Below, piece after piece: positions 7,386 through 26,262 of a DNA stretch of 64,000 nt (positions are counted from its first letter, which is position 1; each line of letters starts with the position of its first letter). Source of the DNA: Asaia siamensis. Lineage in GTDB: Bacteria; Pseudomonadota; Alphaproteobacteria; Acetobacterales; Acetobacteraceae. Location: the NCBI RefSeq assembly GCF_014635085.1, contig NZ_BMCH01000001.1, positions 186,001 to 250,000 of the forward strand. Reading direction: 5' to 3'. A program made the position numbers and the translations under genes. Below the pieces are notes generated by a model. That model worked only from the letters and a program-made list of their open reading frames with translations. It was not told where the DNA came from and ran no database searches.

Positions 7386-9134
7386 CTAGATTATCAGGCT
7401 TGCGCTTGTCGCGACGGGAGAATGGGTATCTCCGGACAGAAGAATGGCCGTCTTTTCTGTCAGAATATTCGCGAGTGTCAGATCGGCGCGCTGCTTGCCA
7501 CTCGGAGTGCGAATTACGAAGCCCTTGCGAATAGCAAAGTATTCGAAGAGCTGGATTCTGTAGCGCTTCATTGTCTCGACTATGGCCGCGCGTAACGCCG
7601 ACGCGTCTGGCGTATTCTCGCATTCGATGATCAGGACCGGAAGGGCGCGTTCGGGCAAGGAGGGGGGAACCACCATGCAAAGAGCGCCTGCCAGAGACTG
7701 ACTGAGCGAAAGGGCGATGTCGTTTGTATAATAGACATTGCCGTCATAGCTGAATTTCTCGCTCAGACGACCGACATGAAACAGTTCCTGCTTGTAGAGA
7801 AAGCCGAAATCCTGTGTTCGCAGATAGCGCCTGTTCTCAATCGTTATAAAGCTGCGCGCGTTGTGGAGCGGGTTGTTCAGATAGCCGATGCTGACACTGG
7901 GGCTGTCTATCCAGATTTCGCCGATGCAGCCTTCCGGCAGGAAGGCGTGTGTGTCGGGGTCGACGATATGAACGTGCTGGTCTTCATGGGTGGTTCCGCA
8001 GCTTGCGAGGGTCGTCGTGTCCTGAGATGAGCCCGCTGTCGCGGGCAGGGCTTTGCCCTGGGTGAGGGCAAGGCGGTCGAATGTCCAGAGCTTCACCCCA
8101 GCTCCTTTCACCCCTGACGTCACAAGAAGGGCATTTTCGGCAAGGCCGTAGCAGGAATAGAAAGCCTCTTTTTTGAAGCCATGACTTTTGAAAGTGTTGA
8201 AAAAAGCGTCCAGCGTCTCGGGGTTGATGCTCTCCGACCCGTTGAACGCTATTTTCCAGCGGGAAAAATCCCAGCCTGGTGCGATATCCCCCGGTGAAAG
8301 ACGCGAAGCATAGCGATAGGCAAAATCGGGGCCACCGGAGATGGTTGCGCCGTAGCGATGGATCGCCTCGAGCCAGCGCGAGGGCTTTTCGATGAATTTG
8401 TCAGGGGCCATGAAATAGAAGGGATTACCGGCAGCGAGGGCCGGAAGAACGGCACCGACAAGGCCCATGTCATGAGTGAAAGGCAACCAGCTGAGGCCGG
8501 TATCATCATCCTGATATTGAAACGAAATCAGCTGCGCATGAATGTTGTGGCAGATATTCCGATGCGACAGGCAGACCCCTTTGGGCTCTTCTGTCGAACC
8601 AGATGTATATTGCACCAGGGCAAGCTGTTCCGAGGTAGAGGCGACGGGTTCGATCTCGCGTGACGATTTGAGCGCACTCTCCAGCGGAATCCATTTGACG
8701 GGGCGGGTCGTATCGCCATCTGCATGGAAGAGATGGAGCGTTTCCTTTTTGCCGAGCACCGCTTGCGCCTGGCTGTCTTCCAGAATGTAGATGAAGCGCT
8801 CGCGTGCGCCGATTGCGCTCGGATAGACCCCCGAGACGGGCACATGACCTGCATAGAGGCAGGCAAAAAAGCCGATGATATATTCCAGCCCGTTTTCGAA
8901 CAGCAGAATGACGCGCGATCCGGCGGGCAGGGTGCGTGCGAGATGGGCGGCGGCGCGTGACGCCTGGCGATGCAAGGCTTCGGCACTCAGGCTGCTTGTG
9001 ACGCTTTCTCCATCACCGAGAAAAAGGAAGATCGGATTGTCGCCTTTGGTCAGGCGTCTGAAATGCAGCAGGTCGATAAGACTGCGCTCTTTCCAGGCCT
9101 GCACGCCGACCAGCGCCTGTTCTTCTTCATACAT
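7386..9134 (-). CDS. Fatty-acyl-AMP ligase (FAAL-type adenylate-forming enzyme)
   Basis: This 582-residue ANL-superfamily enzyme has the ATP loop YTSGSTEEPKG at about residues 176-186 and the FAAL hallmark block WLPFTHDMGLVGAVLPALAAG at about 216-236. SGGPDFAYRYA and the A5-like FYSCYGLAENALLV follow. The C-terminal catalytic lysine is kept in TPSGKQR. FAALs activate fatty acids as acyl-AMP and pass them to an acyl carrier or PKS rather than to CoA. It is the last gene of a minus-strand run (GT4, heptosyltransferase, heptosyltransferase, FAAL) with 38 bp to its upstream neighbour. It probably primes the reducing PKS 11 kb away in the same cluster (inference). Start: ATG at 9134, first residues MYEEEQ. 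Confidence 0.85.
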   Translation of the reverse strand: MYEEEQALVGVQAWKERSLIDLLHFRRLTKGDNPIFLFLGDGESVTSSLSAEALHRQASRAAAHLARTLPAGSRVILLFENGLEYIIGFFACLYAGHVPVSGVYPSAIGARERFIYILEDSQAQAVLGKKETLHLFHADGDTTRPVKWIPLESALKSSREIEPVASTSEQLALVQYTSGSTEEPKGVCLSHRNICHNIHAQLISFQYQDDDTGLSWLPFTHDMGLVGAVLPALAAGNPFYFMAPDKFIEKPSRWLEAIHRYGATISGGPDFAYRYASRLSPGDIAPGWDFSRWKIAFNGSESINPETLDAFFNTFKSHGFKKEAFYSCYGLAENALLVTSGVKGAGVKLWTFDRLALTQGKALPATAGSSQDTTTLASCGTTHEDQHVHIVDPDTHAFLPEGCIGEIWIDSPSVSIGYLNNPLHNARSFITIENRRYLRTQDFGFLYKQELFHVGRLSEKFSYDGNVYYTNDIALSLSQSLAGALCMVVPPSLPERALPVLIIECENTPDASALRAAIVETMKRYRIQLFEYFAIRKGFVIRTPSGKQRADLTLANILTEKTAILLSGDTHSPVATSASLII

Positions 9135-9172
9135 TTGGCAAGACCTGTGATGTGATGGCTTGGGAAGGAACT

Positions 9173-10537
9173 TCAGCCTTCAGGAGAAGAGCCGGGTTGC
9201 AACTCCTGATGCAGGGCATTGCAATAAGAGATGACATGCTCGGCCGTAATCAGACGCGTGCATTCGAAATGGCGCGACGTGTTGGCATGGCGCGGACAGA
9301 AAAGCATGTTCCCGTGCTCGAATGGCGTGCGTACATCGTGCCAGCAGCTATTGCAGACATGGGGATTGAAGACGCGATAGGGTGTCTCGAACTCATTCGA
9401 AGGATGAGTGAACCCGCTGATCAGAACCACAGGGGTGCGCGCAGCCCAGGCAAGCCAGGAAAGACCGCTCGACAGACCAATGAAGAAAGCCGCATGGCGT
9501 AGCCAGTGTGCGCGTTCTGAAAGCGGCCGATCGCCCGTTTCGTCGCGTGTCCCGTGCGGAATGAAATTCCAGTGGTTGCGATGGCCTGCGACGGGGCTCT
9601 TGTCGATGCATACCACTTCGTAACCGAGCGTATTCAAATGTCTGATGACGTTCGACCAGCCGTAAGGATTGTTCCAGTACTTGCACTGGCTCGATGCCTG
9701 CGTGGCGATGACGACATAGGGGCCTTCGATCGGACGCTTCTCTTCCGGCCATGAGACCATGCGTGGCGGGACTTCTGTGGCGTCGACGTCGAGAATGCAG
9801 GCCGCTGTGCGATGCAGCCCGACAAGGCGGAAATCGGATGGCTGCCAGTCATGGGATTCGTCTTGGAAAAACAGGCCGATATGATAGGTCGCATAAGAAA
9901 GATGCTTGATCTCTTCGTACTCGGCGAAAGTGCAGCATCTGACGCCGGGATACTGGCCTGCAAAGAGCTTGCAGGCATCAGGATTCATGGCGACCGTCAG
10001 GTGGCATTGATGCTTCTGCTGGAATTTGACGGCGTAGGAAAACCAGCCGATCGCATCGCCTAGCGTTCCCCCAGGGAGGAGAATGGCGACATTGCGGTCC
10101 CGGCAATCATAATCGTGTATGAAATGCACGGTATCCGTATCGAGAGAGCGTACCTCAAGGCGCGTGCGGATATAGTATTTCTTGGCACCCAGAACCGTGC
10201 AGGCGCCCGTCTCCGAAGCATATAGGCAAACATTGCGGTCGAGATCGGTCAGGCTGACGTGCCAGCGTCCTTCCGGCAGGGTAATGCGGGCCCCGTAATT
10301 GAAATCATAGCCTATGCCGAAATCCCCGCTCTGCGTTGCAAAAAGCGAGGGAGCCGGAAAGGCTCCTGTATCAGCCGTCGTGGCAACGGATGAAGCGGAA
10401 GGGGACGAAACGGCTGTTTGAGGAGTGGTGTCGTCGCCCGATGCGGCACTCGCCCCGGCAGGAGGGGAGCGAGTGTCGGTATTGCCCGTACCCGAAAAAT
10501 TCAGGATTGAGTCGATGATGGAGTTGATATCGCTCAT
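9173..10537 (-). CDS. Autotransporter strand-loop-strand O-heptosyltransferase (TibC/Aah family), copy A
   Basis: This 454-residue protein is of the bacterial autotransporter heptosyltransferase family. It has an N-terminal beta-rich domain (about residues 65-145), a GT-B catalytic part with LLPGGTLGDAIGW and ATQASSQCKYWNNPYGW, and the donor-site run FIGLSSGLSWLAWA. Near the C-terminus lie four cysteines, C395-x2-C398-x15-C414-x11-C426, matching the iron-binding finger described for TibC. These enzymes add heptose from ADP-heptose to Ser/Thr of strand-loop-strand repeats in the cytoplasm. An odd feature is a Ser/Thr/Ala/Pro-rich stretch (about residues 20-65) before the catalytic core, absent from copy B. 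Likely targets are the two Hint proteins encoded opposite. It is separated from copy B by 1 bp. Confidence 0.88.
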   Translation of the reverse strand: MSDINSIIDSILNFSGTGNTDTRSPPAGASAASGDDTTPQTAVSSPSASSVATTADTGAFPAPSLFATQSGDFGIGYDFNYGARITLPEGRWHVSLTDLDRNVCLYASETGACTVLGAKKYYIRTRLEVRSLDTDTVHFIHDYDCRDRNVAILLPGGTLGDAIGWFSYAVKFQQKHQCHLTVAMNPDACKLFAGQYPGVRCCTFAEYEEIKHLSYATYHIGLFFQDESHDWQPSDFRLVGLHRTAACILDVDATEVPPRMVSWPEEKRPIEGPYVVIATQASSQCKYWNNPYGWSNVIRHLNTLGYEVVCIDKSPVAGHRNHWNFIPHGTRDETGDRPLSERAHWLRHAAFFIGLSSGLSWLAWAARTPVVLISGFTHPSNEFETPYRVFNPHVCNSCWHDVRTPFEHGNMLFCPRHANTSRHFECTRLITAEHVISYCNALHQELQPGSSPEG

Positions 10538-10538
10538 T

Positions 10539-11690
10539 CTAGACGCCGCCCGGCCCGTCGCTGATCAACTGTCGGATGATTTGCTCGACATGGCTCGGGG
10601 AGATCAGCTTGGTGCATTCAAAGTCTCGCTCTGTCTCTGCGTGACGGGGGCACCACATGTAGTTCGTTCGCTCGAATTCGAGCGTTACATCGTTTGAGCA
10701 GCCATTGCAGACATTGCGATTGATCACCCGATAGGGGGTCGCAAATTCATTATAGGGCTCCGTAAATCCGCTTATCAGCACAACCGGGCATTCTGCGGCC
10801 CAGGCAAGCCATGACAGGCCGCTCGACAAGCCAATGAAGAACGAGGCATGGCGCAGCCATCGGGCGCGCTCGCTAAGCGGTATCTGGCCGGTCATATCCT
10901 CTACGCCATGAGGTATATGATGCCAGATTGTGCCGCTGCCCGAAACGCGATCACGGTCGATGCAGATCACGCGATACCCCTGTTCCTTGAGAAAAGGGAT
11001 GATCGTTTGCCAGCCTGACGGGTTGTTCCAGTATTTGTTATGCCCCGTCGCCTGGGTGGCGATGCAGACATATTTATCCGGGATTGGTCTTCCGCCTTCG
11101 GCAATTCTGATCGCGGGGCGTCGGTCCTGTGGCGAAAGCCCAAGGATATAGGCACCCGACACCCCAAGGCCGACCTGCCTGTAATCGGTCGGCTGGAAGT
11201 CGCGATTGATGTCGTTGAAAAAGATCAGCACCTTGTACCGTGCGTAATAGGCGCGCTCCAGAAGAGCTTGGTCATCGCTGACCGTCACCTTGTCATTCCC
11301 GGTCTGGAAAAGCTCGGCCAGACCCGGCCGCACAATACAGGTGATCCGGCAGCCATGCAGTGCGGCAAAGGCCTCAACATGACCCATCCAGGCAATATGG
11401 TCGCCGACACCGCCTAGATGCGTGTCGATGAGCACCTCCTGGTCACGAAGGGTCATGACATGGTCGAGAATGACCCGGTCGCCACTTTTGACGCGAAGCG
11501 AAAAGGGAACAAAATATTTCTTGGTGCTGGCAATGAAGCCGCCCTTGCTTTCAGCCGAAAACAGAACGTTCTGGGTGAGCAGATCCTTGATTTCCAGGTG
11601 CCACGCGCCTTCGGGAAGACTGACGCGGCAGCCATCCTGAAAATCAAACCTGATCCCTTCGGGGCCGATCTGGCTCGGCATGCTGTCCAT
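10539..11690 (-). CDS. Autotransporter strand-loop-strand O-heptosyltransferase (TibC/Aah family), copy B
   Basis: This 383-residue paralogue of the downstream gene shares its blocks: THLGGVGDHIAWMGH, ATQATGHNKYWNNPSGW, IPHGVEDMTGQIPLSERARW and FIGLSSGLSWLAWA. The four C-terminal cysteines keep the same spacing (C328, C331, C347, C359), so both copies should bind the structural iron. The Ser/Thr-rich leader of copy A is missing. Family members form large ring oligomers and hyperglycosylate repeat proteins. Two similar copies beside two target proteins suggest either one enzyme per substrate or a mixed ring; the sequence cannot decide. It is translated between the GT4 gene (32 bp) and copy A (1 bp). 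Confidence 0.88.
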   Translation of the reverse strand: MDSMPSQIGPEGIRFDFQDGCRVSLPEGAWHLEIKDLLTQNVLFSAESKGGFIASTKKYFVPFSLRVKSGDRVILDHVMTLRDQEVLIDTHLGGVGDHIAWMGHVEAFAALHGCRITCIVRPGLAELFQTGNDKVTVSDDQALLERAYYARYKVLIFFNDINRDFQPTDYRQVGLGVSGAYILGLSPQDRRPAIRIAEGGRPIPDKYVCIATQATGHNKYWNNPSGWQTIIPFLKEQGYRVICIDRDRVSGSGTIWHHIPHGVEDMTGQIPLSERARWLRHASFFIGLSSGLSWLAWAAECPVVLISGFTEPYNEFATPYRVINRNVCNGCSNDVTLEFERTNYMWCPRHAETERDFECTKLISPSHVEQIIRQLISDGPGGV

Positions 11691-11722
11691 GGGTTCGTGC
11701 TCTTCGTGATCAAACTTCGAGG

Positions 11723-12688
11723 CTAGGCAGCGGATTGCGCCAGTATATCGCCATAGACCTGGGCAACGGCCTGATAGGTGCCATTAACAGAATATTGCTT
11801 TGCTGTCTTCTCTGCCGCGTCGAGCATTCTGTCAATGTGCGGTGCACCGTGAACGATGTCGAAAAGTAGTGTCGCAATACAGTCGACGATTTCCTCGCAT
11901 TGTTCCGGCGAAAACCAGTGGCCATTGAACGGTGTAGCGTAATCCTTGCCGCCTGTTCCATGCAGGCCGACAACCGCACAGCGCGACGCCATGGCTTCCA
12001 GCGGTGTAAGGGGAGCGGCCTCCTGACGTGAAAGGGCCAGAAAGATAGGCGCGATGCCCATAGCTTCTGCCACTTCGCGCTGCGGCCTGTTTTCAAGCGC
12101 GATCCATGGCACTTCTTTCGTGTGAGGATATTTTAGATGGAGCATCGTCACGATCAGATCAGCAAGGGCAGCATTTCCTTTTTCGGCGGGCCACTTGCCA
12201 GGATTGGTTGCGATACAAAGTTGCTTGGGGCGAGGATAAAACAAGTCTGTATCGACTGAGTTGGGAATGACATGGATGCTGTCGAGACCCAGAACTGATG
12301 AGAGCGCGCGTTCAGTTTCGCGGCCGGGAACGATGAAATGTTCGAAGCCCATTTCCTTCAGAGCACTCCCGTTCAGCCTGAAGGTGTAGAGGTAGAACTG
12401 GTTCTGGCAGAACAGAACCTTGGTACCCGGGAGAGGTTCGCGCGCAAGGTCGAGTAGAAAGTCCTTGAGCGTTTCGGGAAAGACGATGAGACTTCCGTCC
12501 TCCGGCTCAAACTGATCGCAGACCTTGACCAGATTTGAGATATCCAACCAGTCCGGTTTGCCGGCTGGCTGGAAGACCGACACGTCATGCCCCAACTTCG
12601 CCAGCATGCCTGCATGTTGGTACGTGACCTTGATGCCGCCGGAGATGGCTTTGGGGTCATAGGGGTTGAGAAATATAATTCTGCTCAT
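11723..12688 (-). CDS. GT4-family glycosyltransferase
   Basis: This is a GT-B fold glycosyltransferase of about 321 residues. I chose the ATG at 12688 (MSRIIFLNPYDPK) because it opens directly with the first Rossmann strand; a longer frame reaches 12748. Typical GT4 features are the acceptor-side GGIKVTYQHAGMLAKLGHDV, the interdomain IPNSVDTDLFYP and the donor-site block QEAAPLTPLEAMASRCAVV with the paired Glu residues. It is the first gene of the minus-strand run leading into the two heptosyltransferases. It probably extends or modifies the glycan on the same target, or makes a lipid-linked sugar; which one is not visible. It has no membrane segment. Confidence 0.8.
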   Translation of the reverse strand: MSRIIFLNPYDPKAISGGIKVTYQHAGMLAKLGHDVSVFQPAGKPDWLDISNLVKVCDQFEPEDGSLIVFPETLKDFLLDLAREPLPGTKVLFCQNQFYLYTFRLNGSALKEMGFEHFIVPGRETERALSSVLGLDSIHVIPNSVDTDLFYPRPKQLCIATNPGKWPAEKGNAALADLIVTMLHLKYPHTKEVPWIALENRPQREVAEAMGIAPIFLALSRQEAAPLTPLEAMASRCAVVGLHGTGGKDYATPFNGHWFSPEQCEEIVDCIATLLFDIVHGAPHIDRMLDAAEKTAKQYSVNGTYQAVAQVYGDILAQSAA

Positions 12689-12933
12689 GATGCGCGTGGT
12701 CCACGAAGGGTAATGTCCTGAGATATGATCATGGGCTTGATGGCCCAATAGATCAATAATGCATCCATATTGCTTATTGTATTCGCATATTTACGAACTA
12801 AGGATTTTTCGCAAAAAACTCGCTAATTAGGGATAATGTCATAGTAATTTATTGTGGGGATATTTGTGGACGCTCCTCAGTCTAGTGCTTAAACCATCTC
12901 GCATTGTGGGATTTGTAGTCTCTTGAATGGTTA

Positions 12934-12954
12934 ACGTTTTCCTAAAGAAAACGT
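12934..12954. promoter_or_regulatory. Palindrome ACGTTTTC-n5-GAAAACGT, copy 1
   Basis: An 8-bp perfect inverted repeat with a 5-nt spacer lies in the divergent promoter region. A second site with the same arms lies about 185 bp away, which suggests an operator pair for one regulator. Confidence 0.5.
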
Positions 12955-13118
12955 CAAAAAGATGAACTCCGCAGACTCGTTCATTAAATCGGCCTTCATA
13001 TCAGCCATTGTGAGAAGGATTGCGAAGCGGGGAGATTGAATTTTATCAAAAAAATGTAAGATATATTCAATATGTTACAATATGGGCGTAGAAATTTCTT
13101 TATGATGATGAGTGTATG

Positions 13119-13138
13119 ACGTTTTATACCGAAAACGT
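13119..13138. promoter_or_regulatory. Palindrome ACGTTTT-n6-AAAACGT, copy 2
   Basis: A 7-bp perfect inverted repeat with the same ACGTTTT/AAAACGT arms as copy 1 lies about 200 bp upstream of the first Hint gene. Confidence 0.5.
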
Positions 13139-13339
13139 GATCGCTATCCGTTAATGGGTGGTCATTGTATTGCATGGCCTGATGTGCGAAGAGATGTTAG
13201 CTATTAGATAACAGGATTCGCCGGGCAGGCGATTCCATATAATGATTCGGACAACAGCGCGATAAACCATGTAACGATCCTGCTAGATGTCGGGTCGGAT
13301 TAGTAATCGTGTCTAACCGGGCGTCTTGAGGGGGTAAAA

Positions 13340-15589
13340 ATGACAGTATATTCAGCCGGCACCGCAAGCGGCGGGACAATCACCAGTAGCGGTGGGAAAT
13401 ACACCATCCTTAGTGGTGCGACGCTCGTCGTGCAGGATTCGCCTTATGTAGTGTCGGGCGCGCTGGTTTCAGGTTTCGGAAATGGACCAAGAAATTCGGA
13501 CGCCATTCCGGGCCAGTCGGGCGGCACAAACTATCCTGCGCTTCTTGTTGCCTCGAATGGTGGTCTTGCCTCTGGGGCGACTGTGGGCTTCGGTGGTGTT
13601 GTCATGGGGGCTGGCGGCGGACATGTCTCCGGTGGCACAGCCTTCGATAGCGGCTCCTTCGTTGCCGCGAATAGCGGTTATGTCGATGGCGTCACCGTAG
13701 GGGCCAATGGTGGTGTCCTTGCGTCGATGATGGCAGGTTATGGCGGCGCCGCCGGTACTGTTACCAATGCGCATGTCAAGGAAGGCGGCTACGGGCTCGC
13801 AGGGGGTGGTTTCACCATCAAGGGCCAGAGATTTGCCGGATCTGGTATTATCTCCGCCAGTCAGTTCGATGTTGGCTCAACCGAAATCGTGACATCGGCG
13901 GGCACGGATATTGGCAGTCTCATCGGCGGCACGCAGGTGATAAGTTCGGCCGGTGTGTCTCTTGGGTCTATTTTCAGTGCAGGCACCCAGATTATTCTCT
14001 CTGCGGGGCTCGCGAGCGGCGCCACGGCTTCGGCCGGAGGGCTGATTACGGTCAGCGGAGGTGGGGTGGCTTCTGCGGTCGTGCTTGCTTCTGGCGGCAG
14101 TCTGCAGGCATTGTCCGGAGCGCGCGTGAATGGGTTGCAGATACAGGCCGCCGCCGCCGCTTCTGCGGATTCGGCAGCGATATTGAGCAGTGTGGTTATC
14201 TCCGGAGGTGGCACGCTGACACTCAACTCAGGGGCGACGCTCATCAACGCCGTCGTTTCCGGGATCACGTCCAGCGGTGGGGCTGGTGGTCTGCTCGTCC
14301 TTCATTCCGGCGCCGTGCTCAGCGGTGTCACATCCATGGGTTTCAAGAGCCGACTTGATGTCGATAGTATCCAGTATGTCTCCGGTACGAAGACAACCTA
14401 TAATGGCACAACGCTGACGATCAGCGACGCGTCGGGTAATGTTATTTGGTCGGGGTCTGTCGCTGGTATTCCCAGTGGTGCGACGAGTAGTGACTTCCAT
14501 GTCGAGCGTGATCCGACCGATGGAAGCATGATCATCATTTACGACAAATGCTTCCTGCGCGGCACGATGATCCGTACGGAGCATGGTGAGCGCGCGGTTG
14601 AGGCTATTCAGGTCGGTGATAATGTTCTTGCCTGCGTGGGTGGCAGGGAAGTGCTGCGTGAGGTTATCTGGGTCGGTCGTCGCACGGCAACGGTGCGACC
14701 TGCCCATCACGATGACGAGGCCGGCTTCCCTGTGCGCATCGTGCAGGGCGCGCTTGGTGATAATGTTCCATACAAGGACCTCCTCGTCACTCCCGAACAC
14801 GCGTTGTTTCTCGATGGGGCGTTTGTGCCTGCACGTATGCTGGTCAACGGCGTCAGCATTTTCTATGACCGTGCCCTTACCCAGTTTGATTACTATCATA
14901 TCGAAACAGATGAGCATTCTGTTCTCTGGTCGGATGGTGCTTTGAGCGAGAGTTACCTGGACACCGGAGATCGGACTTCATTTTCCCAAGGTGGTCCAGT
15001 TGTTCGTTTGCTGAATGCTCCTGCCAAGACGTGGGAAGAGCACGCGGCGGCGCCGCTTCGCGTCGAGCGCGGTTTTGTCGAGCCTTTATTCAAGGCGCTT
15101 ACCGAAAGGGCGGCGGCGTTGGGGCTCAATGCAGAAGCGCCTCGTCATGCGGTAACAGAGGATGCCGATCTTCATCTGGTTGATGACAGCGGCAGGGAAA
15201 TTCGCCCGCTACGCAAAGTCGGGCAATCGCATATCTTCATGCTTCCTGCCGGAGTCAAAGCTCTCTTCCTTGTCTCCCGGTCCTCGCGCCCCACTGACAC
15301 CGTAGGTCCGTTTCATGATGACCGCCGTCACCTTGGCGTGCTGGTAGGCGAAATTCAGGTTTGGGAAGCAGGTCATACGCGACAGATCGACAAGCATCTG
15401 ACGTCTGCCACGATGGCTGGATGGTCCAATCAAGAGGAGGGCCGCTATCGCTGGACTACCGGGCGTGCGGAAATTCCGCTGCATGACGTGCTGCCCGACA
15501 CCATTGCCATGATTTCGATCGAAGTGTTGGCTGGTGGGCCCTACAGGGTGGAAATTCCGGGTAACGGGTACGTCGACGAAGTCGGCTGA
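13340..15589 (+). CDS. Strand-loop-strand repeat protein with C-terminal Hint_2 (Hedgehog/intein-like) domain, copy 1
   Basis: 749 residues; GAGGGGG lies 6 bp before the ATG. About residues 20-345 are Gly/Ser/Ala-rich strand-loop-strand repeats of the autotransporter-passenger type that heptosyltransferases modify (units such as GGTAFDSGSFVAANSGYVDG and SGATLINAVVSG). A Hint_2 domain follows (about 400-545), with nucleophile C404 in DKCFLRGTMI, the T484-x-x-H487 pair in VTPEHALFL, and HSVLWSDGALSESYLD at its end. A C-terminal domain (about 605-740: DLHLVDDSGREIRPL, FHDDRRHLGVLVGEIQVWE) closes the protein. There is no Sec signal peptide and no beta-barrel, so export is unexplained. No C-terminal Asn plus nucleophile is seen, so true protein splicing is unlikely; Hog-like cleavage or ligation is possible. 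Confidence 0.85.
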   Translation: MTVYSAGTASGGTITSSGGKYTILSGATLVVQDSPYVVSGALVSGFGNGPRNSDAIPGQSGGTNYPALLVASNGGLASGATVGFGGVVMGAGGGHVSGGTAFDSGSFVAANSGYVDGVTVGANGGVLASMMAGYGGAAGTVTNAHVKEGGYGLAGGGFTIKGQRFAGSGIISASQFDVGSTEIVTSAGTDIGSLIGGTQVISSAGVSLGSIFSAGTQIILSAGLASGATASAGGLITVSGGGVASAVVLASGGSLQALSGARVNGLQIQAAAAASADSAAILSSVVISGGGTLTLNSGATLINAVVSGITSSGGAGGLLVLHSGAVLSGVTSMGFKSRLDVDSIQYVSGTKTTYNGTTLTISDASGNVIWSGSVAGIPSGATSSDFHVERDPTDGSMIIIYDKCFLRGTMIRTEHGERAVEAIQVGDNVLACVGGREVLREVIWVGRRTATVRPAHHDDEAGFPVRIVQGALGDNVPYKDLLVTPEHALFLDGAFVPARMLVNGVSIFYDRALTQFDYYHIETDEHSVLWSDGALSESYLDTGDRTSFSQGGPVVRLLNAPAKTWEEHAAAPLRVERGFVEPLFKALTERAAALGLNAEAPRHAVTEDADLHLVDDSGREIRPLRKVGQSHIFMLPAGVKALFLVSRSSRPTDTVGPFHDDRRHLGVLVGEIQVWEAGHTRQIDKHLTSATMAGWSNQEEGRYRWTTGRAEIPLHDVLPDTIAMISIEVLAGGPYRVEIPGNGYVDEVG

Positions 15590-15606
15590 GGTGATCCGGG
15601 CAGGGG

Positions 15607-15845: not shown

Positions 15846-16061
15846 ATATTACGCTATCACCTATAGAAATTATCTATACAAATGGAGATTGATCGTTGAA
15901 ATTCTATGTGTCAGTAAAAATCACGTTAATAAATTGTGAGCGAGTGTAGTCTGCATTCTGAGGTTCGAGCGCTGTGTTAAGGCGTGATGGGGCATCCTTT
16001 GCTTTGTCGCTAGCTCCGCGGTGCCTCGGTGCGTGCTCGTATATCTTGCAGGAGCTGGCAT

Positions 16062-18275
16062 ATGGGTATTACTTCTGACGGTATGAGCGGTGCGGCGTCG
16101 ATCGAGAAGACGGGCCCGAAAAGCTATAGCATCCTGAGTGGCGCCACGCTGATTACTACAGGCGCGGATTCAACGACGATCGGTAGCTACGTCGCTGGTC
16201 TGGGTGCTGGTGGAACAAATAACCCAGCCATGCTGATCGCTTCCGGCGCCGCTCTTGCGTCTGGGGCAACAGCGGTCTCGGGCGGTGTTGTTTTGGCTGG
16301 TGGCAACGGCTCGGCCGTTGGCGGCACTGCCTTTGATAGTGGCGGGTTCGCGGCCATTAATGATGGTGTTGTCAGTGGTGTGACGGTCGGTGCCCAGGGG
16401 GGCGTCCTGGCGAGCAAGATGTCCAGCTATGGTGGTGGGCCGGGCGTTGTGATGGACGCTCATGTTCAGGCTGGCGGCTACGGGGTCGCAGGCGGCGGCT
16501 TTACGCTCAAGGGGCAGAGTTTTTCTGGTGCTGGCGTGATCTCCGGCAGCAAGTTCGATATCGGTTCTACTGAAATTCTTGCAAGTGCCGGAACGGACCA
16601 TGGTAGCCTTATCGGCGGCCTGCAGATCGTCAGCTCGGGTGGTACGGCGCTGCGATCGATTTTCAGTGCCGGAACGCAGCTGCTCGGTGCGGGTGCACAG
16701 GCGATAAGCTGTGTTGTCTCATCGGGTGGGCTTGTCGAGATTGCGCAGGGAGCCGTCACTAGCAGTTTGACCGTCGGTGCTGGTGGTAGCGCGCATGCGC
16801 AGGCGGGGGGCGGGATCAACGCAGCAAGTATCTCAGTCAATGGACAGATCTCGCTCGATGCCATGGCCTATGCCAGCGGCATTACGGTTGAGCGCGGTGG
16901 CACTCTGACGGTTAACTCTGGGGCAACCCTGACAGATGTCATGATCTCAGGCATCGAGCAGGGCTGCGAGGGCGCCGGAGGCCTGCTTGTTGTGCAGTCC
17001 GGTGCCGTGCTGGATGGCGTTCGTATTGGCTGGAAAGGGCGTATCGACGTCGATACCCTCGGATGGACCGAAGGCCAGCGTATCGTCTACAGCAGCACCC
17101 AGATCAGCATTGTCGATGCGTATAATCGGGTTCTCTGGACGGCGCCTGTCAGAGGGACGGAAGCCATCTCAACTGCCGATTACCATCTTGAACGAGACCC
17201 GGTCGATGGCAGCACGGTCATCGTCTATGACAAGTGCTTTCTGAAAGGCACCATGATCCGCACCGATCAAGGCGAGATCGCAGTCGAGGCACTCAAGGTT
17301 GGTGACCGGGTTGCGGCCTATGTCAATGGCGATGAGGTTTTCCGCGAGATCGTCTGGCTCGGTCATCGCACCACCATCGTGCGCACCTGGCTTGACGATG
17401 ATGAGGCCGGTTATCCTGTTCGCATTCTGCGCAACGCACTGGGCGAGAATATTCCGCACAAGGATCTCTTGGTTACGCCAGAGCACGCCATGTTCCTTAA
17501 CGGTGCATTCGTACCGGCCCGCATGCTCGTGAATGGACGCAGCATTTTCTATGACCGGACAATCACGCATTTCGATTACTACCATGTCGAAACAAACGAG
17601 CATTCGGTTCTCTGGTCCGATGGCGCGCTGAGCGAAAGCTACCTCGATACAGGTGATCGCAAGCGTTTTGCTCAGGCCAATTCCGTTGTGCATATTCTGA
17701 ATGCGGCTGAGCGGACTTGGGAAAGCGATGGTGCAGCGCCTCTCTGCGTCGAGCGTCGTTTCGTCGAGCCGCTGCATGCGTCTCTTGCGCACCGTGCCGC
17801 TGCGCTTGGACTTGGTGAAGTGAAACACGAACCTGCGATTACAGAAGATCCTGACCTGCATCTCGTTGACGACCGGGGTCGTATCATGCGCAAGATGCGT
17901 ACGGTTAATCGCTCCAGCGTGTTCATGCTGCCGCCAGATGCAAGGCGCGTCCGTATTGTTTCACGTGTTTCGCGTCCTGCTGACGTTATCGGGCCGTTCC
18001 ATGACGATCGCCGTCATCTTGGTGTTCTTGTGGGTGACATCCAGATCTGGGAGTCCGACAAGACCCGCCATATCGGGGCTCATCTGACCGATGACACACT
18101 CGAGGGTTGGGCCAATATCGAGGATGGGCGTCAGCGCTGGACAACGGGTGCTGCGGTTCTCGACCTGAGTGACCGCCAGTCGGACGCGGTTTGCATTCTC
18201 GCCATCGAAATTCTCGCTGGCGGGCCGTATCTGGCAGAGTCTTCGACGACGCTGCTGGGTGCCCAGGCGGGGTAG
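16062..18275 (+). CDS. Strand-loop-strand repeat protein with C-terminal Hint_2 domain, copy 2
   Basis: 737 residues from the ATG at 16062, which has GGAG 7 bp upstream; a longer GTG-started frame from 16029 is less likely. It is a close tandem paralogue of the gene upstream, with the same layout: Gly/Ser-rich repeats (about 20-335; GGTAFDSGGFAAINDGVVSG, SGATLTDVMISG), then Hint_2 with C392 in DKCFLKGTMI and T472-x-x-H475 in VTPEHAMFL, then the C-terminal domain with DLHLVDDRGRIMRKM and FHDDRRHLGVLVGDIQIWE. The Hint and C-terminal parts are more alike between the copies than the distal repeat region. No signal peptide or barrel is visible. It is a likely second substrate of the heptosyltransferases. 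The proteins could form a surface layer or adhesin; this is inference. Confidence 0.85.
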   Translation: MGITSDGMSGAASIEKTGPKSYSILSGATLITTGADSTTIGSYVAGLGAGGTNNPAMLIASGAALASGATAVSGGVVLAGGNGSAVGGTAFDSGGFAAINDGVVSGVTVGAQGGVLASKMSSYGGGPGVVMDAHVQAGGYGVAGGGFTLKGQSFSGAGVISGSKFDIGSTEILASAGTDHGSLIGGLQIVSSGGTALRSIFSAGTQLLGAGAQAISCVVSSGGLVEIAQGAVTSSLTVGAGGSAHAQAGGGINAASISVNGQISLDAMAYASGITVERGGTLTVNSGATLTDVMISGIEQGCEGAGGLLVVQSGAVLDGVRIGWKGRIDVDTLGWTEGQRIVYSSTQISIVDAYNRVLWTAPVRGTEAISTADYHLERDPVDGSTVIVYDKCFLKGTMIRTDQGEIAVEALKVGDRVAAYVNGDEVFREIVWLGHRTTIVRTWLDDDEAGYPVRILRNALGENIPHKDLLVTPEHAMFLNGAFVPARMLVNGRSIFYDRTITHFDYYHVETNEHSVLWSDGALSESYLDTGDRKRFAQANSVVHILNAAERTWESDGAAPLCVERRFVEPLHASLAHRAAALGLGEVKHEPAITEDPDLHLVDDRGRIMRKMRTVNRSSVFMLPPDARRVRIVSRVSRPADVIGPFHDDRRHLGVLVGDIQIWESDKTRHIGAHLTDDTLEGWANIEDGRQRWTTGAAVLDLSDRQSDAVCILAIEILAGGPYLAESSTTLLGAQAG

Positions 18276-18316
18276 GGTTGAGGCTTCATTCTTGACCCGT
18301 ATTTTGTGGGTAAACA

Positions 18317-18345: not shown

Positions 18346-18362
18346 TTTGGGGATTGATCTGA

Positions 18363-19826: not shown

Positions 19827-19914
19827 AGTCAAAAAAGGGTAGGCAAGAAATTGTCACGCGTATTATTTCTATAGTCTTCCCAGATGCTGATTATAATAAG
19901 GTTCGGTTGTCGTT

Positions 19915-22900
19915 ATGTCGCGCAAGAAAACTGCTGATATCGCCATCATTGGGATCGGTTGCCGCCTGGCACCCAATATCAGAAATGTCGATGAACTCTG
20001 GTCGTTTCTCTGTGCGGAGGGTGAAGCGGTCTCGGATATCCCCGAGGAGCGCTGGAGCGTCAAACGCTTCTACGCCGAGGAAATCGAAGCCCCTTCGAAA
20101 ACCTATATGCGCAGGGGCAGTTTTCTTAAGAGGAACATCCACGAATTCGAGCCGCTCTTTTTCGGAATTTCTCCGAGGGAAGCGCAGATCATGGATCCGC
20201 AGCAGAAACTGCTGCTCGAAGTCACGTGGGAGGCGATGGAGAATGCCCGCGTTGTGCCTGCGAGGCTGGCAGGACACAAAACCGGTGTCTTCATCGGCAT
20301 CTTCGCTGTCGATGCGCATGCCCATACGTCGAGCCCCTATAATCTTCCGACGGTGCGCGACCATTTTGCGGCGACGGCAACACCGTCAACCATGCTCTCT
20401 GCCCGGCTGGCGCATGTCTATGATTTGCAAGGCCCTTGCATGTCGATCGACACGGCCTGTTCTTCATCGCTTGTGGCACTGCATCAGGCCTGCCGCAGCC
20501 TGAATGAGGGCGAGACGGATGTGGCTATCACGGGTGGCGTCAGCCTCATGATCTGCCCCCAGACCTCGATTTTCATGTCCAAGGGACACTTCATCGCCCG
20601 TGATGGACGCTCGAAGAGCTTCGATGCTGCTGCAGACGGCTATGGCCGAGGCGAAGGCAGTGTGGTCTTCATTCTCAAGCGCCTTGAGGATGCAGAGCGC
20701 GATGGAGATACTATCCACGCCATTGTCAGTTCGACAGGCGTGAATTCGGATGGCCGTACGCAGTTTCTGACCTCACCCGATGCCGGGGCTCAGTCGCGAC
20801 TCATGACCGAGGTTCTGGAGGCGGCGCAGGTTGACCCCGCCGACGTTGCCTATGTCGAAACCCACGGCACCGGCACGCCCGCCGGCGATCCGATCGAAAC
20901 CTATGCGCTGGCGCAATCCATAGCCCGTTTCAAGGATGAGAAGCTGGTTATCGGGGCGATCAAGGCCAATCTGGGTCATACCGAAGCAGCAGCAGGCGCG
21001 CTGGGCACGCTCAAGGCGGCCTTGTGCCTGCGCCATCAGGAAGCGCCCCCGCAGCCGCGGCTACAGAATATCAACCCGTCCATCCACCTCGATGAATGGA
21101 ATCTCGATGTGGCACGTGGAGGCATGCGGTCGCTCGCCACCACGAAGTCCGCGCGCTATGCTGGCGTCAATTCTTTCGGCTATGGCGGAACGAATGCGAT
21201 TGCCCTGCTGCGTCGTCCCGAGACGAAAAAGAAGGCCACGGGCCGTAAAGGCACAGCGCAGCGGATCAATGGCAAAATCCCTTTTCTGCTGACGGCCTTT
21301 TCCAAAACGTCGTTGCCTCTCATGGCGGCAGCCTATCGTGAGCGTCTGGACGCCAGCCCGGCACCTGCCCTGGGCGATCTGGCTTTCAGCCTGGCGACAT
21401 CGCGTACGCTGTTCCGCAACCGTCTTCTCATCATGGCGCGCGATGAAAAGGATCTGGGTGCAAAGCTCGATTCCTATTTGCAGGATCAGCGTCAGGACGA
21501 TGTGTTCCAAGCCAGTGTCGAAGCACAATCCGGGCGTGGCATTGTGTTTGTCTATTCTGGCGTGGGGCCGCAATGGTGGGGTATGGGGCGCTATCTGCTG
21601 CACCACGCGCCAGAGGCGGTTCTTGCCAAAGCACGACGCTGCGATACGATTTTCAAGGCAATTTCAGGCTTTTCGATTGTCGATGAAATCCTGAAAGAAG
21701 CAGAATTCTCGCGTATCGATAATACGGCCATCCTGCAGCCTGCCATCTTCGTGATTCAGGTTCTGGTGACCGAATATCTTGCCCAACAGGGTATTCTGCC
21801 CGATGCTGTTCTGGGTCACAGCATGGGCGAGGTAGCCGCTGCTTATGTGGCCGGTGCGCTGAGCCTAGATGACGCCGTCACCGTCATCTATTATCGCAGC
21901 ACGTTGCAAGGCACGCTTGATGGCACGGGACGCATGCTTGCTGTGGGGCTGTCTGCCGAAGCCGCGCAGGAAGTTATTGCCGAACAGGCGCCCGAACTCT
22001 GTGTGGCGGCAATCAATGCGCCCAACACCTGCACCCTTGCCGGACCGGAGGAAGCAATCAGGACGCTTTCTGCCCATCTGTCGCAGAAGGGGCTGTTCAA
22101 CCGCATTCTGAATGTCGACGTGCCATTTCATAGTGCCGTCATGGATCGTATCGAAACCGATCTGAAAACGGCACTGAGCGATCTTTCGCCCAGAGCGGCG
22201 ACCACGCCATTCTATTCCACCGTTCAGGGTGCACTTACGGCAGACGAGCATCGCGTCGATTCCGATTACTGGTTCAAAAATGCCAGACAGCCGGTTCTTT
22301 TCGCGTCTGCGGTCGAGGCCTGTCTCGCTGACGGCTTCACGCAATTTGTCGAAATAGGTCCGCATCCGGTCATCGGGCGGTCTCTCAAGTCGGTGGCAGA
22401 CAAGCAGCAGGCCAAGCTTAGCGTCATCAGCACGCTCAATCGTCAGGAAGACGAAGCCAAATGCCTCGAAAATGCCGTCGCCAACATTATCCTTCAGACG
22501 GCGCGTCTCGACTGGCAGGCCATCACGGCGGGTGCGCTAATCGATCTGCCATCCTATCGCTGGTCGCGTGAGGAATGTTGGATCGAAAACGAGCGCGAGA
22601 AGCGTTTTCGACAGGGCGGCAACGGTCATCCGCTGATCGGATTTGGCGCCATGACACCGGGAAAATCCTGGGTGGTCGATCTGACAGAGCTTGGCGTGCC
22701 CTGGCTCAAGGACCACTGCATAGACAATGTGATCCTGCTGCCTGCGGCCGGGTTCATCGAATCCGCCCTCGCGGTTGGTCATGAGGTCGAGGGTCAGACC
22801 GGCATCGTGCTCGAGAATTTCGAAATCCTCGCGCCTCTGGTTGTGCAGACTGGCGATAACCCGGTCATGCATCTTGTCTATGACGAGCTGAAAAAGACTC

Positions 22901-25900
22901 TGCGCTTCTTTAGTGCCAAGGAAGAATACAGCGAGATGTGGCTCGACCATGGACAGGTCGATATCCTCTCTGCTGCGCCCTGGCCCATGCCGGTCATCGA
23001 CAGGGAGGAGGCGCGTGAATGCCTTGCCCAGGGTCATGACGGGGCAGCCCTGTATGAGAAGATCCGCGCGCATGGTTTCCATTACGGACCCAGCTTTCAG
23101 ACGCTGCAGCGGTTTACCGTGCAGGGGCGTGTTGCCTATGCAAGAATAGGGTTGAACGAGGCAGAGCTGGGGGATGCTGAGGCTTATCATCTGCATCCGG
23201 CCCTGCTCGATGGCGCCATGCATGCCCTGATCGGTCTGGTGCCTGAAAGCTTCTCTGACCACATGTATGTGCCGGTCGGTTTCGAGCGTCTGAGTTGTTT
23301 TGCCAAGGGGCTGAGTGAGATCGTGGCCCGGGTCGAGATCACGACCATCAGCCAGAGCCTGATCGAGGCGACACTGCGGCTTTACACGACCGAAGGGATG
23401 CCCGCTGCCGAAATCAGGGGGCTACGCCTGGCCGAGGTGCCCCGTGTACGCAAGGAAGCCGCCAAAGCGGTTGAGACCCAGCAGTATTTCACCAAATGGA
23501 CCGAGACAGAGGCCTCGATCCTCTTCGCGGAACCCAAGACCCTTCTCATTGCCGGGCATAAAACGGCCGCAGTCAAAAAACTTGCTGCGCTGCTCGAGGA
23601 GAATGGTGTCACTGTTCTGTCGGTGCCACGGTCAGGCGCCATCACAGCAGAGACGATCGGACTTGAACCCGGTCTGACGCTCGATGCCGTTCTGTATAGT
23701 GCGGACACTGCGCAGGATAACGCGTTTGACGCAATCATCGATCAGATCAACGCACTGGTGAAATTCAGCAACCGTCTCTCGCTCGAGAATGTCGAAAAGC
23801 AGCCAAAACTGATTTTTGTGTCGGAAAACTCCCTGTTTTTCGACCCTGAGGACGTGCTTGCCAGAACGGCCCGTGTGAATGCCGATGGCGCGGCGCTTGT
23901 GGGTTTCTTCAAGGGGCTGGTCGATGAGCGTCCCGATTTCCGGGGCAAGGTGATCGATGTCGACACGCTGTCCACGCCCGATGCATTGGCCGCTCTGGCC
24001 GCTGAAATCCTGAATGAGGATTCAGAAGCCGAGGTGGCCCTGCGCGAAGGGCGGCGTTTCGTGCCGCGTTTCATGCCGGTTGAGGGGCAGCCTGACAGAA
24101 ATCTGGCCCAGTTGCCCGGTACCCCCGGCATCAAGCTGCAAAAGAGCCGGACGGGCACGCTGGATGGTCTTTATTACAAGGCTTTCGACGTGCGTCCTCC
24201 GGGGCGTGGCGAGATCACGATCCGCATCCTGGCGACCTCTCTCAATTTCAAGGACATGCTCAAGGGCATTTCGGTTCTGCCCGAAAAATTCCTGCTCGAC
24301 ACCTATCATACGGTCGAAATGGGCATGGAATGCTGCTTCGAGGTTGTGGCAGTCGGCAAGGGGGTCAAGCGCTTTGAAGTCGGCAAGCGCTATCTGACCT
24401 GCCATCCGGGTTGCTTTGCCTCGCACATGACACTGCCGGTCAAGGGCTTTCGTGTCATGCCACTCGATTTGTTCGAAACGGCAGGGCGCCCCCTTACCGT
24501 TGCCGAAGCGACGGGTCTGCCCATTGCGATCGCAACCGCACTCTACTGCCTGCACGATCTTGCCCATCTCAAGAAGGGTGAGATCCTGCTCGTGCATTCC
24601 GCAGCAGGCGGGGTCGGGCTTGCCGCGATCGAAATCGCCAAGATTATCGGTGCCCGCATCTTCGCCACGGCGAGCAATGACGAAAAACGTCAGATCCTGC
24701 TCGATCGTGGCTGCGAGGCTGTGTGGGATTCACGCAGTCTCGCTTTCTATGAGGGCATTCTGGATGTGACCGGCGGCAAGGGTGTCGATGTCGTGCTCAA
24801 CAGCCTGCCTGGTGAGATGCAGGCTCATAGCCTTGCGCTGCTGTGCAATACCGGGCGTTTCGTTGAAATTGGAAAGAAGGATATCTGGGAAAAGCGCGAT
24901 CTCTCCCAGTTCAGCTTCAACGGCAATGTCTCGTTCCACAGCTTCGATCTCGATCTGATGATGGCCAATGACCATCGCAAGGCCGTGTCGATTTTCGATC
25001 GTATCCCCTATCTCTCACGCAAATTCGACACGGTCATATTGCCTCACAAGGTCTATCCGGCGTCCGAGGTGCGTGAGGCCTTCAAGTTCATGTCGTCGGC
25101 AAAGCATATCGGCAAGATCCTCGTTTCCTACGAGGATCTTGCTGATGTCCGTGCCCAGCGTCAGCCTGTCAGGCCGATCGATCCTGAAGGGGCTTATCTA
25201 ATAACGGGTGGACAGGGCGGGCTGGGTCTTACGACTGCCGCCTGGCTGGCCGCCCATGGTGCGCGCCATCTCCATCTGATGGGGCGCAGCAAGCGTGATG
25301 ACGCCGAGACATTGGCAAAGATCAAGGCGTTGAAAAAGGCTGGTGCCCGCGTCACGCTGCATTATGGCGATGTCGCCACTCTGGAGGATCTGGCGCGCAT
25401 CAAGGCCGCCATTCTGGAGGCAGGTCATCCGCTGAAGGGCGTTTTCCATACAGCCGGTGTGCTCGATGACAGGCTGGTGTCGAAATATACCGAAGAGAGC
25501 CTGCGTCGGGTGCTCGCCCCCAAAATTCTCGGCGGCCGTCATCTCGACGAACTGACGCGCGACTGCCCGCTCGATTATTTTGTGCTTTATTCGTCCATCG
25601 TCACCGTGACGGGCAATATCGGTCAGAGCAGCTATCTTGCCGCCAATACCTGGCTCGATGCGCTGGCCAGCGCGCGGCGCAAGGCGGGGTATCCTGCGCT
25701 CTCGGTGCAATGGGGACCGATTGCCGAAATCGGCATGCTGGCGCAGGAAGGCAGCGTTGTGCAGTTTTTCGAAACTGCGGGCTTCCGGCTCCTTCAGGGC
25801 GAAGAGGCCTTGTCGCTTCTGCCGGACCTGCTGAATCGCGACCGCGATACTGTGGCGGCGCTCGCGATCGATTGGGAAACCTGCTTTACCCAGCACGGGG

Positions 25901-26262
25901 GCATTGAGCGCAACCCGAAATTCGCGCTCATCCGCCGTGAAAAGAATGATCGCAATTCCTCAGCACAGAAACTCGCCCATCTTCAGGCACTTTCACCGGA
26001 AGAGCGGTATGATTTCGTTCTGGAGAATGTGAAGACCATTCTGGGCAGCGTGCTGAAAATGGCGCCCGACAGCATCGATCCAGGGGCTCGTCCCAATGAG
26101 CTGGGGGTGGATTCCCTTGCTGGCGTCGAGATTCAGACGGCCATCAAGACCGAGTTCAATGTCGAGATCTCCCTGCTGGTGCTTTCACGCAATGAACCTA
26201 TCCGGGAAATCGCTAAAAACGTATTGCGTCAGATCAGTCTGAACGCTCTGGCCTCTGCCTGA
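19915..26262 (+). CDS. Type I highly reducing polyketide synthase, KS-AT-DH-ER-KR-ACP
   Basis: 2115 residues, one complete reducing module. The KS has C182 in DTACSSSL with H317 (ETHGTGTPAGDP) and H355 (NLGHTEAAAG). The AT has S636 in GHSMGEV and a VPFHS motif at 736-740, which favours malonyl-CoA. The DH has H934 (WLKDHCIDN) and D1099 (HPALLDGAM). The ER has an NADPH loop, HSAAGGVG, near 1561-1568. The KR has TGGQGGLG at 1764-1771, S1894, Y1907, and LDD of B type. The ACP has S2067 in LGVDSL. There is no thioesterase or terminal reductase. Order and size match mycobacterial mycocerosate-type synthases, which act iteratively on FAAL-delivered fatty acids; the FAAL in this cluster fits that role. 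The start codon has no obvious Shine-Dalgarno. The product is probably a saturated long chain; its fate is unknown. Confidence 0.93.
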   Translation: MSRKKTADIAIIGIGCRLAPNIRNVDELWSFLCAEGEAVSDIPEERWSVKRFYAEEIEAPSKTYMRRGSFLKRNIHEFEPLFFGISPREAQIMDPQQKLLLEVTWEAMENARVVPARLAGHKTGVFIGIFAVDAHAHTSSPYNLPTVRDHFAATATPSTMLSARLAHVYDLQGPCMSIDTACSSSLVALHQACRSLNEGETDVAITGGVSLMICPQTSIFMSKGHFIARDGRSKSFDAAADGYGRGEGSVVFILKRLEDAERDGDTIHAIVSSTGVNSDGRTQFLTSPDAGAQSRLMTEVLEAAQVDPADVAYVETHGTGTPAGDPIETYALAQSIARFKDEKLVIGAIKANLGHTEAAAGALGTLKAALCLRHQEAPPQPRLQNINPSIHLDEWNLDVARGGMRSLATTKSARYAGVNSFGYGGTNAIALLRRPETKKKATGRKGTAQRINGKIPFLLTAFSKTSLPLMAAAYRERLDASPAPALGDLAFSLATSRTLFRNRLLIMARDEKDLGAKLDSYLQDQRQDDVFQASVEAQSGRGIVFVYSGVGPQWWGMGRYLLHHAPEAVLAKARRCDTIFKAISGFSIVDEILKEAEFSRIDNTAILQPAIFVIQVLVTEYLAQQGILPDAVLGHSMGEVAAAYVAGALSLDDAVTVIYYRSTLQGTLDGTGRMLAVGLSAEAAQEVIAEQAPELCVAAINAPNTCTLAGPEEAIRTLSAHLSQKGLFNRILNVDVPFHSAVMDRIETDLKTALSDLSPRAATTPFYSTVQGALTADEHRVDSDYWFKNARQPVLFASAVEACLADGFTQFVEIGPHPVIGRSLKSVADKQQAKLSVISTLNRQEDEAKCLENAVANIILQTARLDWQAITAGALIDLPSYRWSREECWIENEREKRFRQGGNGHPLIGFGAMTPGKSWVVDLTELGVPWLKDHCIDNVILLPAAGFIESALAVGHEVEGQTGIVLENFEILAPLVVQTGDNPVMHLVYDELKKTLRFFSAKEEYSEMWLDHGQVDILSAAPWPMPVIDREEARECLAQGHDGAALYEKIRAHGFHYGPSFQTLQRFTVQGRVAYARIGLNEAELGDAEAYHLHPALLDGAMHALIGLVPESFSDHMYVPVGFERLSCFAKGLSEIVARVEITTISQSLIEATLRLYTTEGMPAAEIRGLRLAEVPRVRKEAAKAVETQQYFTKWTETEASILFAEPKTLLIAGHKTAAVKKLAALLEENGVTVLSVPRSGAITAETIGLEPGLTLDAVLYSADTAQDNAFDAIIDQINALVKFSNRLSLENVEKQPKLIFVSENSLFFDPEDVLARTARVNADGAALVGFFKGLVDERPDFRGKVIDVDTLSTPDALAALAAEILNEDSEAEVALREGRRFVPRFMPVEGQPDRNLAQLPGTPGIKLQKSRTGTLDGLYYKAFDVRPPGRGEITIRILATSLNFKDMLKGISVLPEKFLLDTYHTVEMGMECCFEVVAVGKGVKRFEVGKRYLTCHPGCFASHMTLPVKGFRVMPLDLFETAGRPLTVAEATGLPIAIATALYCLHDLAHLKKGEILLVHSAAGGVGLAAIEIAKIIGARIFATASNDEKRQILLDRGCEAVWDSRSLAFYEGILDVTGGKGVDVVLNSLPGEMQAHSLALLCNTGRFVEIGKKDIWEKRDLSQFSFNGNVSFHSFDLDLMMANDHRKAVSIFDRIPYLSRKFDTVILPHKVYPASEVREAFKFMSSAKHIGKILVSYEDLADVRAQRQPVRPIDPEGAYLITGGQGGLGLTTAAWLAAHGARHLHLMGRSKRDDAETLAKIKALKKAGARVTLHYGDVATLEDLARIKAAILEAGHPLKGVFHTAGVLDDRLVSKYTEESLRRVLAPKILGGRHLDELTRDCPLDYFVLYSSIVTVTGNIGQSSYLAANTWLDALASARRKAGYPALSVQWGPIAEIGMLAQEGSVVQFFETAGFRLLQGEEALSLLPDLLNRDRDTVAALAIDWETCFTQHGGIERNPKFALIRREKNDRNSSAQKLAHLQALSPEERYDFVLENVKTILGSVLKMAPDSIDPGARPNELGVDSLAGVEIQTAIKTEFNVEISLLVLSRNEPIREIAKNVLRQISLNALASA

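Follow-up and report, generated by a model that had tools for sequence, protein, structure and literature searches.

Among the described systems closest to the locus treated here are the Aah/TibC heptosyltransferases with their AIDA-I and TibA clients and the synthases of mycobacterial envelope lipids. TibC-family enzymes modify protein beta-helices, while mycocerosic acid synthase (MAS) pairs with FadD28 in the mycobacterial systems that join a fatty acyl-AMP ligase (FAAL) to a polyketide synthase (PKS) for envelope lipids. Genes of both kinds lie side by side at positions 7386-26262 of the window, which is the whole stretch of 64,000 nucleotides (nt) that was analysed (Asaia siamensis, contig NZ_BMCH01000001.1, positions 186,001 to 250,000). 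The region is real and conserved, and the reading that fits it best is a system for protein heptosylation coupled to a dedicated lipid synthase. Such a protein O-heptosylation machine tied to its own lipid synthase would thus exist in acetic acid bacteria, several of which are bee-associated by name or in the literature. A 2021 survey (PMC8776678) lists these clusters as beta-group type-1 PKS; statements on this and the other papers cited by PubMed Central (PMC) number refer to excerpts of them.

Judged from sequence, the region combines TibC enzymes that keep their functional residues with a MAS-like PKS, a lysine-bearing FAAL, beta-helix proteins resembling TibA and Ag43 that carry a fused Hint domain, and a lysine-less ANL protein. 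Open reading frames (ORFs) and library scans place all eight genes at the coordinates given by the first-pass annotation and bear out the gene types that it had named. The left arm runs leftward with the GT4-type enzyme, the two TibC-type O-heptosyltransferases and the FAAL, and the right arm runs rightward with two beta-helix/Hint_2 proteins, the degenerate ANL protein (hereafter the A-like protein) and the PKS:

7386-9134, minus strand: FAAL (P0001), predicted to activate the starter acyl chain and to load it
9173-10537, minus strand: TibC/Aah-type O-heptosyltransferase 2, TIGR04414 at 543.6 bits, catalytic and iron-finger residues kept
10539-11690, minus strand: TibC/Aah-type O-heptosyltransferase 1 (P0003), TIGR04414 at 543.1 bits, matching the TibC structure 4rap
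11723-12688 (ORF to 12748), minus strand: GT4-type glycosyltransferase by family match, start probably at an inner ATG
13340-15589, plus strand: strand-loop-strand beta-helix protein (P0005), Hint_2 at residues 404-542, C-terminal beta-rich region
16029-18275, plus strand: second beta-helix/Hint_2 protein (P0006) with a Hint_2 match, 56% identical to P0005
18363-19826, plus strand: A-like protein (P0007) of the AMP-binding family, lacking both the P-loop core and the A10 Lys
19915-26262, plus strand: iterative reducing PKS (P0008), KS-AT-DH-ER-KR-ACP, closest solved structure MAS, no thioesterase found

The GT4 gene probably starts at 12688, because the first ATG lies 20 codons into the ORF and the alignment of the G085 homologue begins there.

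Conservation was followed in 120 Acetobacteraceae genomes and in a class-wide set of 385 genomes, both drawn from larger groups. A PKS relative stands in a cluster in nine of the 120 (G000, the genome of the window, G085, G008, G061, G118, G032, G040, G116 and G029, the last with a PKS below the search threshold that was recognised by reading of its locus), and the remaining 28 of the 36 genomes with PKS matches have only partial matches, at 34-37% identity, to other PKSs. In each of the nine, the same stretch also contains a FAAL, an A-like protein and either one or two TIGR04414 genes. A scan of other genomes with the A-like protein, from which the best 80 matches were kept, added seven distinct loci in Asaia bogorensis, Acetobacter nitrogenifigens, A. 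sacchari, Saccharibacter floricola, Parasaccharibacter apium, Bombella mellum and Commensalibacter melissae; loci B3987 and ESL0709 were counted as duplicates of G118 and G061 and stand outside these 16. The core (A-like protein, PKS, FAAL and TibC) occurs together in 16 of 16 distinct loci, its A-like and PKS members being partly present by construction as the loci were chosen by matches to one or the other. Clustered by gene family, the flanks of the 16 loci form five sets, two of which share one edge fragment in L068. A GT4-related gene is present in eight.

Selection of the loci by PKS or A-like matches makes counts in the opposite direction important. Of the family genomes, 12 have an A-like relative at E 1e-40, nine of them with the cluster and three without it (G064, G105 and G111), and ten have a FAAL relative at E 1e-80, nine of them with the cluster and G002 without it; TIGR04414 at E 1e-50 occurs anywhere in the genome in 31 of the 120. 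Class-wide, the A-like protein at E 1e-40 is confined to three of 385 genomes, all of them Acetobacteraceae. In 12 loci the core is colinear in the order A-like, PKS, FAAL, TibC and, in most, a second TibC. The start codon at the PKS-FAAL junction overlaps the PKS stop by 4 or 1 nt in nine of these 12, and the two TibC genes overlap by 4 nt in all five colinear loci in which both could be measured (in the window they are separated by a 1-nt gap). The window, G085, G008 and Asaia bogorensis have the divergent layout in two arms. Two adjacent TibC genes are found in most clusters and one in that of G040. Within the genus of the window, all nine genomes have the PKS, whole in seven and in pieces in two drafts, one of which carries in-frame stops. 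The core genes very likely constitute one system, because they stay together in all 16 loci against five backgrounds, often with overlapping genes. This is also the outcome of the neighbourhood search that the first-pass annotation had proposed, which asked whether PKS/FAAL and Hint/heptosyltransferase genes lie at unrelated loci in related genomes.

The heptosylation half rests on several lines of comparison. Both TibC-type proteins exceed the NCBIfam cut-off of 200 bits for TIGR04414, and residues 4-375 of P0003 align near full length with the solved TibC 4rap (377.6 bits). D110, K230, R286, W305 and the four cysteines of the iron finger are kept in 17 of 17 cluster TibC proteins, with T226 being T or S; the roles of these residues have been described (PMC4358343). 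The heptose nucleotidyltransferase TIGR02199 is matched in all nine cluster genomes, over its curated cut-off in seven, compared with 11 of 14 controls at a loose threshold and three of 14 over the cut-off. The TibC enzymes probably O-heptosylate the beta-helix in the cytosol with ADP-heptose, an assignment well founded by sequence and fold. A third TibC-type gene of this genome (L060, 9367-10614) has no Hint gene within the 18 kb read.

The likely client is the beta-helix. The N-terminal part of P0005 matches the passengers of TibA (sequence E 5.3e-5), AIDA-I and Ag43, and its model matches the fold of the heptosylated TibA fragment 4q1q at E 2.3e-7 and also that of Ag43. P0005 can accordingly be placed among beta-helix passengers by sequence and modelled fold, though it scores 17.3 bits against a cut-off of 30 for the repeat family TIGR04415, to which P0006 has no match. 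The pairing of heptosyltransferases with such repeats, drawn from family relations in the first-pass annotation, thus finds support in the TibC residues and in this TibA-like protein. A C-terminal autotransporter barrel was not found, and a Pfam scan of P0005 and P0006 returns Hint_2 only. The Hint first Cys is present in 18 of 18 cluster Hint proteins, and C404, T484 and H487 are invariant in the eight aligned, which defines a Hint fold with the first Cys and the TxxH block. The modelled Hint fold matches bacterial intein-like (BIL) domains and, more weakly, Hedgehog 1at0. No C-terminal His-Asn was seen by eye in the alignment of eight. Because the first Cys is kept and this pair is missing, the domain could possibly cleave N-terminally without splicing. 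Around 200 residues follow the Hint domain and include a beta-rich part, modelled at moderate confidence, that has no convincing match among solved structures.

The lipid half consists of a ligase and a synthase. The best NCBIfam matches of the FAAL are PKS/FAAL models and FadD32/21/28, all below their own cut-offs, its nearest solved structures include FadD32, FadD23 and FadD28, and the A10 Lys is invariant in nine of nine aligned cluster FAALs. The protein thus resembles FAALs over acyl-CoA ligases and bears the lysine, though the curated cut-offs are not reached. A second, distant FAAL-like gene (G000:C3:1838-3316 and equivalents), around 27-31% identical to P0001, is present in many family genomes. 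Residues 5-2103 of the PKS align near full length with MAS. All 16 distinct genomes retain the KR triad and the active-site residues of KS, DH and ACP, with one KR glycine replaced by A in G040 and L075. The AT domain is present in 14 of the 16, and in each of these the AT His is preceded by an aromatic residue, within the motifs VPFH/VPYH, LPYH or LAYH. A YASH-type motif marks methylmalonyl enzymes, while an aromatic residue before the His marks malonyl enzymes. A straight chain is predicted because the AT motif is not of the methylmalonyl YASH type, and the expected product is a straight saturated acyl chain. In G116 (L058, 7329-13364) and G029 the PKS lacks the AT domain and keeps the other domains, which suggests that malonyl units are supplied in trans. 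No thioesterase was found in P0008 or in the four relatives scanned.

The A-like protein is the most unusual member of the core. P0007 matches the AMP-binding family, yet the P-loop core SG(T/S)TG and the A10 Lys of ANL enzymes are kept in none of the 16 clusters. The A10 Lys is needed for adenylation. It is kept in 46 of 49 relatives outside the clusters, comprising 43 of 46 scan rows that passed a score and length filter together with G064, G111 and G105. P0007 should not be called an active ligase on these residues, and the presence of lysine-less adenylating-type proteins in all 16 clusters suggests a non-ligase job for the ANL fold. In most clusters with a Hint gene, the A-like gene stands between it and the PKS gene. 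At the 71 scanned loci beyond the nine clusters, phmmer at E 1e-8 against the DNA around each gave no Hint or TibC matches, and a few distant A-like loci (L119, L121 and L146 among them) have FAAL- and PKS-like genes. The neighbours of distant relatives were considered as a guide to the role of P0007 and set aside, as the ORF lists of eight loci gave no common theme. Outside the family, A-like relatives stand in runs of three or four genes at L097, L102 and L124. In G064 (L049, 7507-11787, minus strand), the gene right after a Hint/strand-loop-strand gene encodes an A-like relative in which both the P-loop and the A10 Lys are kept; no PKS lies next to this pair.

Taken together, the region may be one operon-type system, in two divergent arms in this genus, that makes an envelope glycoprotein and a dedicated lipid; with all its steps included, this statement is plausible but falls somewhat short of an even chance. 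After heptosylation of the beta-helix, the FAAL would turn a fatty acid into an acyl-AMP and load the PKS, which would extend it with malonyl units under full reduction to give the straight saturated chain on the ACP; these two steps are likely. As no thioesterase was found, the chain would have to be passed on to an acceptor; the leading candidate for a handler of this transfer is the degenerate ANL protein, a step that can be proposed only tentatively. The weakest link of the model is the idea that P0007, without acting as a ligase, handles the PKS-bound chain or passes it on. Either the heptosylated beta-helix protein or the glycan on it would most likely receive the chain, which would yield a surface glycoprotein with a lipid anchor, and the Hint domain would trim the precursor via its first Cys; taken as a whole, this last step is doubtful. 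It could also be speculated that processing is Hedgehog-like, with the Hint Cys thioester of the heptosylated beta-helix handed to a lipid nucleophile derived from the FAAL and PKS and the ANL protein as lipid handler. This is a long shot, and if true the adhesin would exit the cell bearing a C-terminal lipid of polyketide type.

Several observations weigh against a lipid-anchored glycoprotein made by all of these genes, and most of them concern the Hint proteins. A Hint gene is present in 11 of the 16 loci (locus ORFs were picked as the longest frame, and the first Hint gene of G008, hidden by an antisense frame, was seen in the profile search and tree set) and absent from the stretch examined in the other five (G118, G032, S. 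floricola, P. apium and B. mellum). The cluster Hint proteins do not form one clade, and the idea of a special clade was given up: their tree requires five label changes where shuffles give 11.6, none of 500 shuffles is as low as five, and well-supported branches force only two, with two long branches making parts of the tree unsure. Nine of the 11 Hint_2 genes of the window's genome lie outside the cluster, and TibC-Hint neighbours within 5 kb occur in at least three genomes without this PKS (G030, G037 and G100), a lower bound among the matches listed. Model confidence is low for the Hint part and the C-terminal part, at a mean predicted local distance difference test (pLDDT) of 65.2 and 62.1, respectively, over eight sequences each. 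No secretion gene was recognised in the cluster, the Hint proteins of the window have no clear signal peptide, and no cluster gene was recognised as an acyltransferase onto protein or sugar. Finally, A-like relatives that keep the Lys exist without this PKS in G064, G105 and G111. The suggestion of the first-pass annotation that all these genes form one system is thus supported for the core, whereas it is weakened for the Hint genes by the five clusters without them and the lack of a single clade. The arrangement is probably a conserved modification core with exchangeable clients, the Hint gene being a replaceable one.

The Hint genes themselves vary between genomes. Hint_2 matches number 11 in G000 and 22 each in G085 and G008, and seven Hint genes read outside the cluster of G000 are scattered, with no TibC beside them. 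G118 and G032 each have five Hint_2 matches outside the cluster; in G032, two of the five are fragments of a single site, and one contains a stop. G116 and G029 carry a Hint gene with the A-like gene on one side and the PKS on the other. G061, in which the single Hint_2 gene and both TIGR04414 genes all lie inside the cluster, is the cleanest case. The possibility that other Hint genes have a type I secretion partner nearby was also considered and dropped, as no type I set was recognised among the ORFs read; this reading covered ORFs and an LSGG motif flag around seven of the nine outside Hint genes (all except C3:420221 and C8:89899) and the third TibC gene. At L064 an ABC-ATPase-like ORF (10552-12001), two genes from a Hint gene, is importer-like by eye.

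The product of the PKS could instead be a diffusible specialised metabolite, an antifungal candidate in Bombella apis or a sulfur-containing compound, which the heptosyltransferases would glycosylate or beside which they would merely lie. Spent medium of B. apis inhibits fungi while medium acidified to pH 5 does not, the effect withstands heating and protease treatment, and every strain in that study has a type-1 PKS (T1PKS) cluster with DH, ER, KR and two putative adenylation domains (PMC8262860). Section 16 of PMC8776678 likewise treats the beta-group as metabolite clusters, and the clusters of the Bombella group have no Hint gene. However, the excerpts of PMC8262860 give no genetic proof for the PKS, and according to PMC9147383 the cluster is also found in acetic acid bacteria not associated with bees and secreted acids could contribute. 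The DsbD/thioredoxin-type family, a likely basis of the sulfur idea, flanks only seven of the 16 loci, one of them as an edge fragment, and its gene was rejected as a member of the system on the same count. No thioesterase or tailoring gene was recognised, the PKS is a single fully reducing module, and the TibC family is one that modifies protein beta-helices and keeps its residues in all 17 cluster proteins. A diffusible metabolite is therefore considered unlikely, and the gene block is more likely to make a product for the cell surface, decorated with sugar and fat, than the free antifungal proposed for the honey-bee version.

The lipid might also be the base of an outer-membrane glycolipid, with sugars added by TibC or the GT4 enzyme and the Hint protein as a separate client of the heptosyltransferases. 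The GT4-related gene, the core without Hint in five loci, and the resemblance of the PKS to MAS, a maker of envelope lipids, would suit this possibility, but GT4 is missing from as many clusters as have it, the Hint gene sits inside the operon in G116 and G029, and TibC acts, to our knowledge, on protein in every studied case; such a glycolipid is improbable. Two or more independent systems that are neighbours by chance would explain the TibC-Hint neighbours of G030, G037 and G100, in which this PKS was not found, as well as the Hint/A-like pair of G064 with no PKS beside it. Chance neighbourhood was rejected on the constancy of the core across 16 loci and five flank sets with overlapping genes, and is very improbable. 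Protein heptosylation joined to a dedicated lipid synthase remains the preferred reading.

Outside the eight genes, the flanks of the region are as follows:

26340-27608, minus strand: MFS transporter by library match
6312-6821, plus strand: Sel1 protein by library match
3797-6166, plus strand: TonB-receptor-like gene, named from reading of the sequence and not from a library match

The MFS flank is common to the window, G085, G008 and Asaia bogorensis, while the TonB-receptor-like flank occurs in three loci.

Compared with Aah/TibC and its clients AIDA-I and TibA, the locus has the same enzyme family with catalytic and iron residues kept and a beta-helix in P0005 related to TibA by sequence and modelled fold. 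It differs in that the client carries a Hint domain and a C-terminal beta-rich region where no autotransporter barrel was found, in the two adjacent TibC genes of most clusters, and in the PKS and FAAL within the block. With MAS/FadD28 it shares the domain order, the near full-length PKS similarity and the FAAL partner, whereas its AT motif is not of the YASH type, no PapA-type acyltransferase was recognised, and G116 and G029 lack the AT altogether. The beta-group of PMC8776678 agrees in having a PKS flanked by acyl ligases, a consistently present O-heptosyltransferase and Hint proteins in Asaia, yet no protein-modification role is assigned in the excerpts, and a sulfur-containing metabolite is suggested for one subgroup. 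The same survey calls the Asaia PKS likely split, whereas it is one gene of 2114 amino acids (aa) in A. bogorensis GD-01 and of 2115 aa here, with pieces in two of nine genomes of the genus.

The B. apis T1PKS, proposed as one antifungal candidate (PMC8262860), has KS, AT, DH, ER, KR and ACP with two adenylation domains, and it was reported also from Saccharibacter floricola DSM 15669 and Asaia bogorensis (PMC9147383), both species in which the present cluster was found. From the domains, the two adenylation domains and the shared species, we infer that it is the same cluster. It differs in having been published as a metabolite cluster, with heptosyltransferases absent from PMC9147383 by word search and unmentioned in the excerpts of PMC8262860. 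The first-pass annotation had known of no described pathway with this set; the gene set is in fact described in PMC8776678 and a matching Bombella cluster in PMC8262860, while no functional study of it and no reading as protein glycosylation plus lipid were found in the open-licence PMC literature. New relative to the searched literature are thus the glycosylation-plus-lipid reading, an ANL partner without the lysine in 16 of 16 clusters, and the doubt raised about the antifungal interpretation. As to the Bombella antifungal of honey-bee brood, one leading candidate is thereby put in doubt, a question that a single gene deletion can test.

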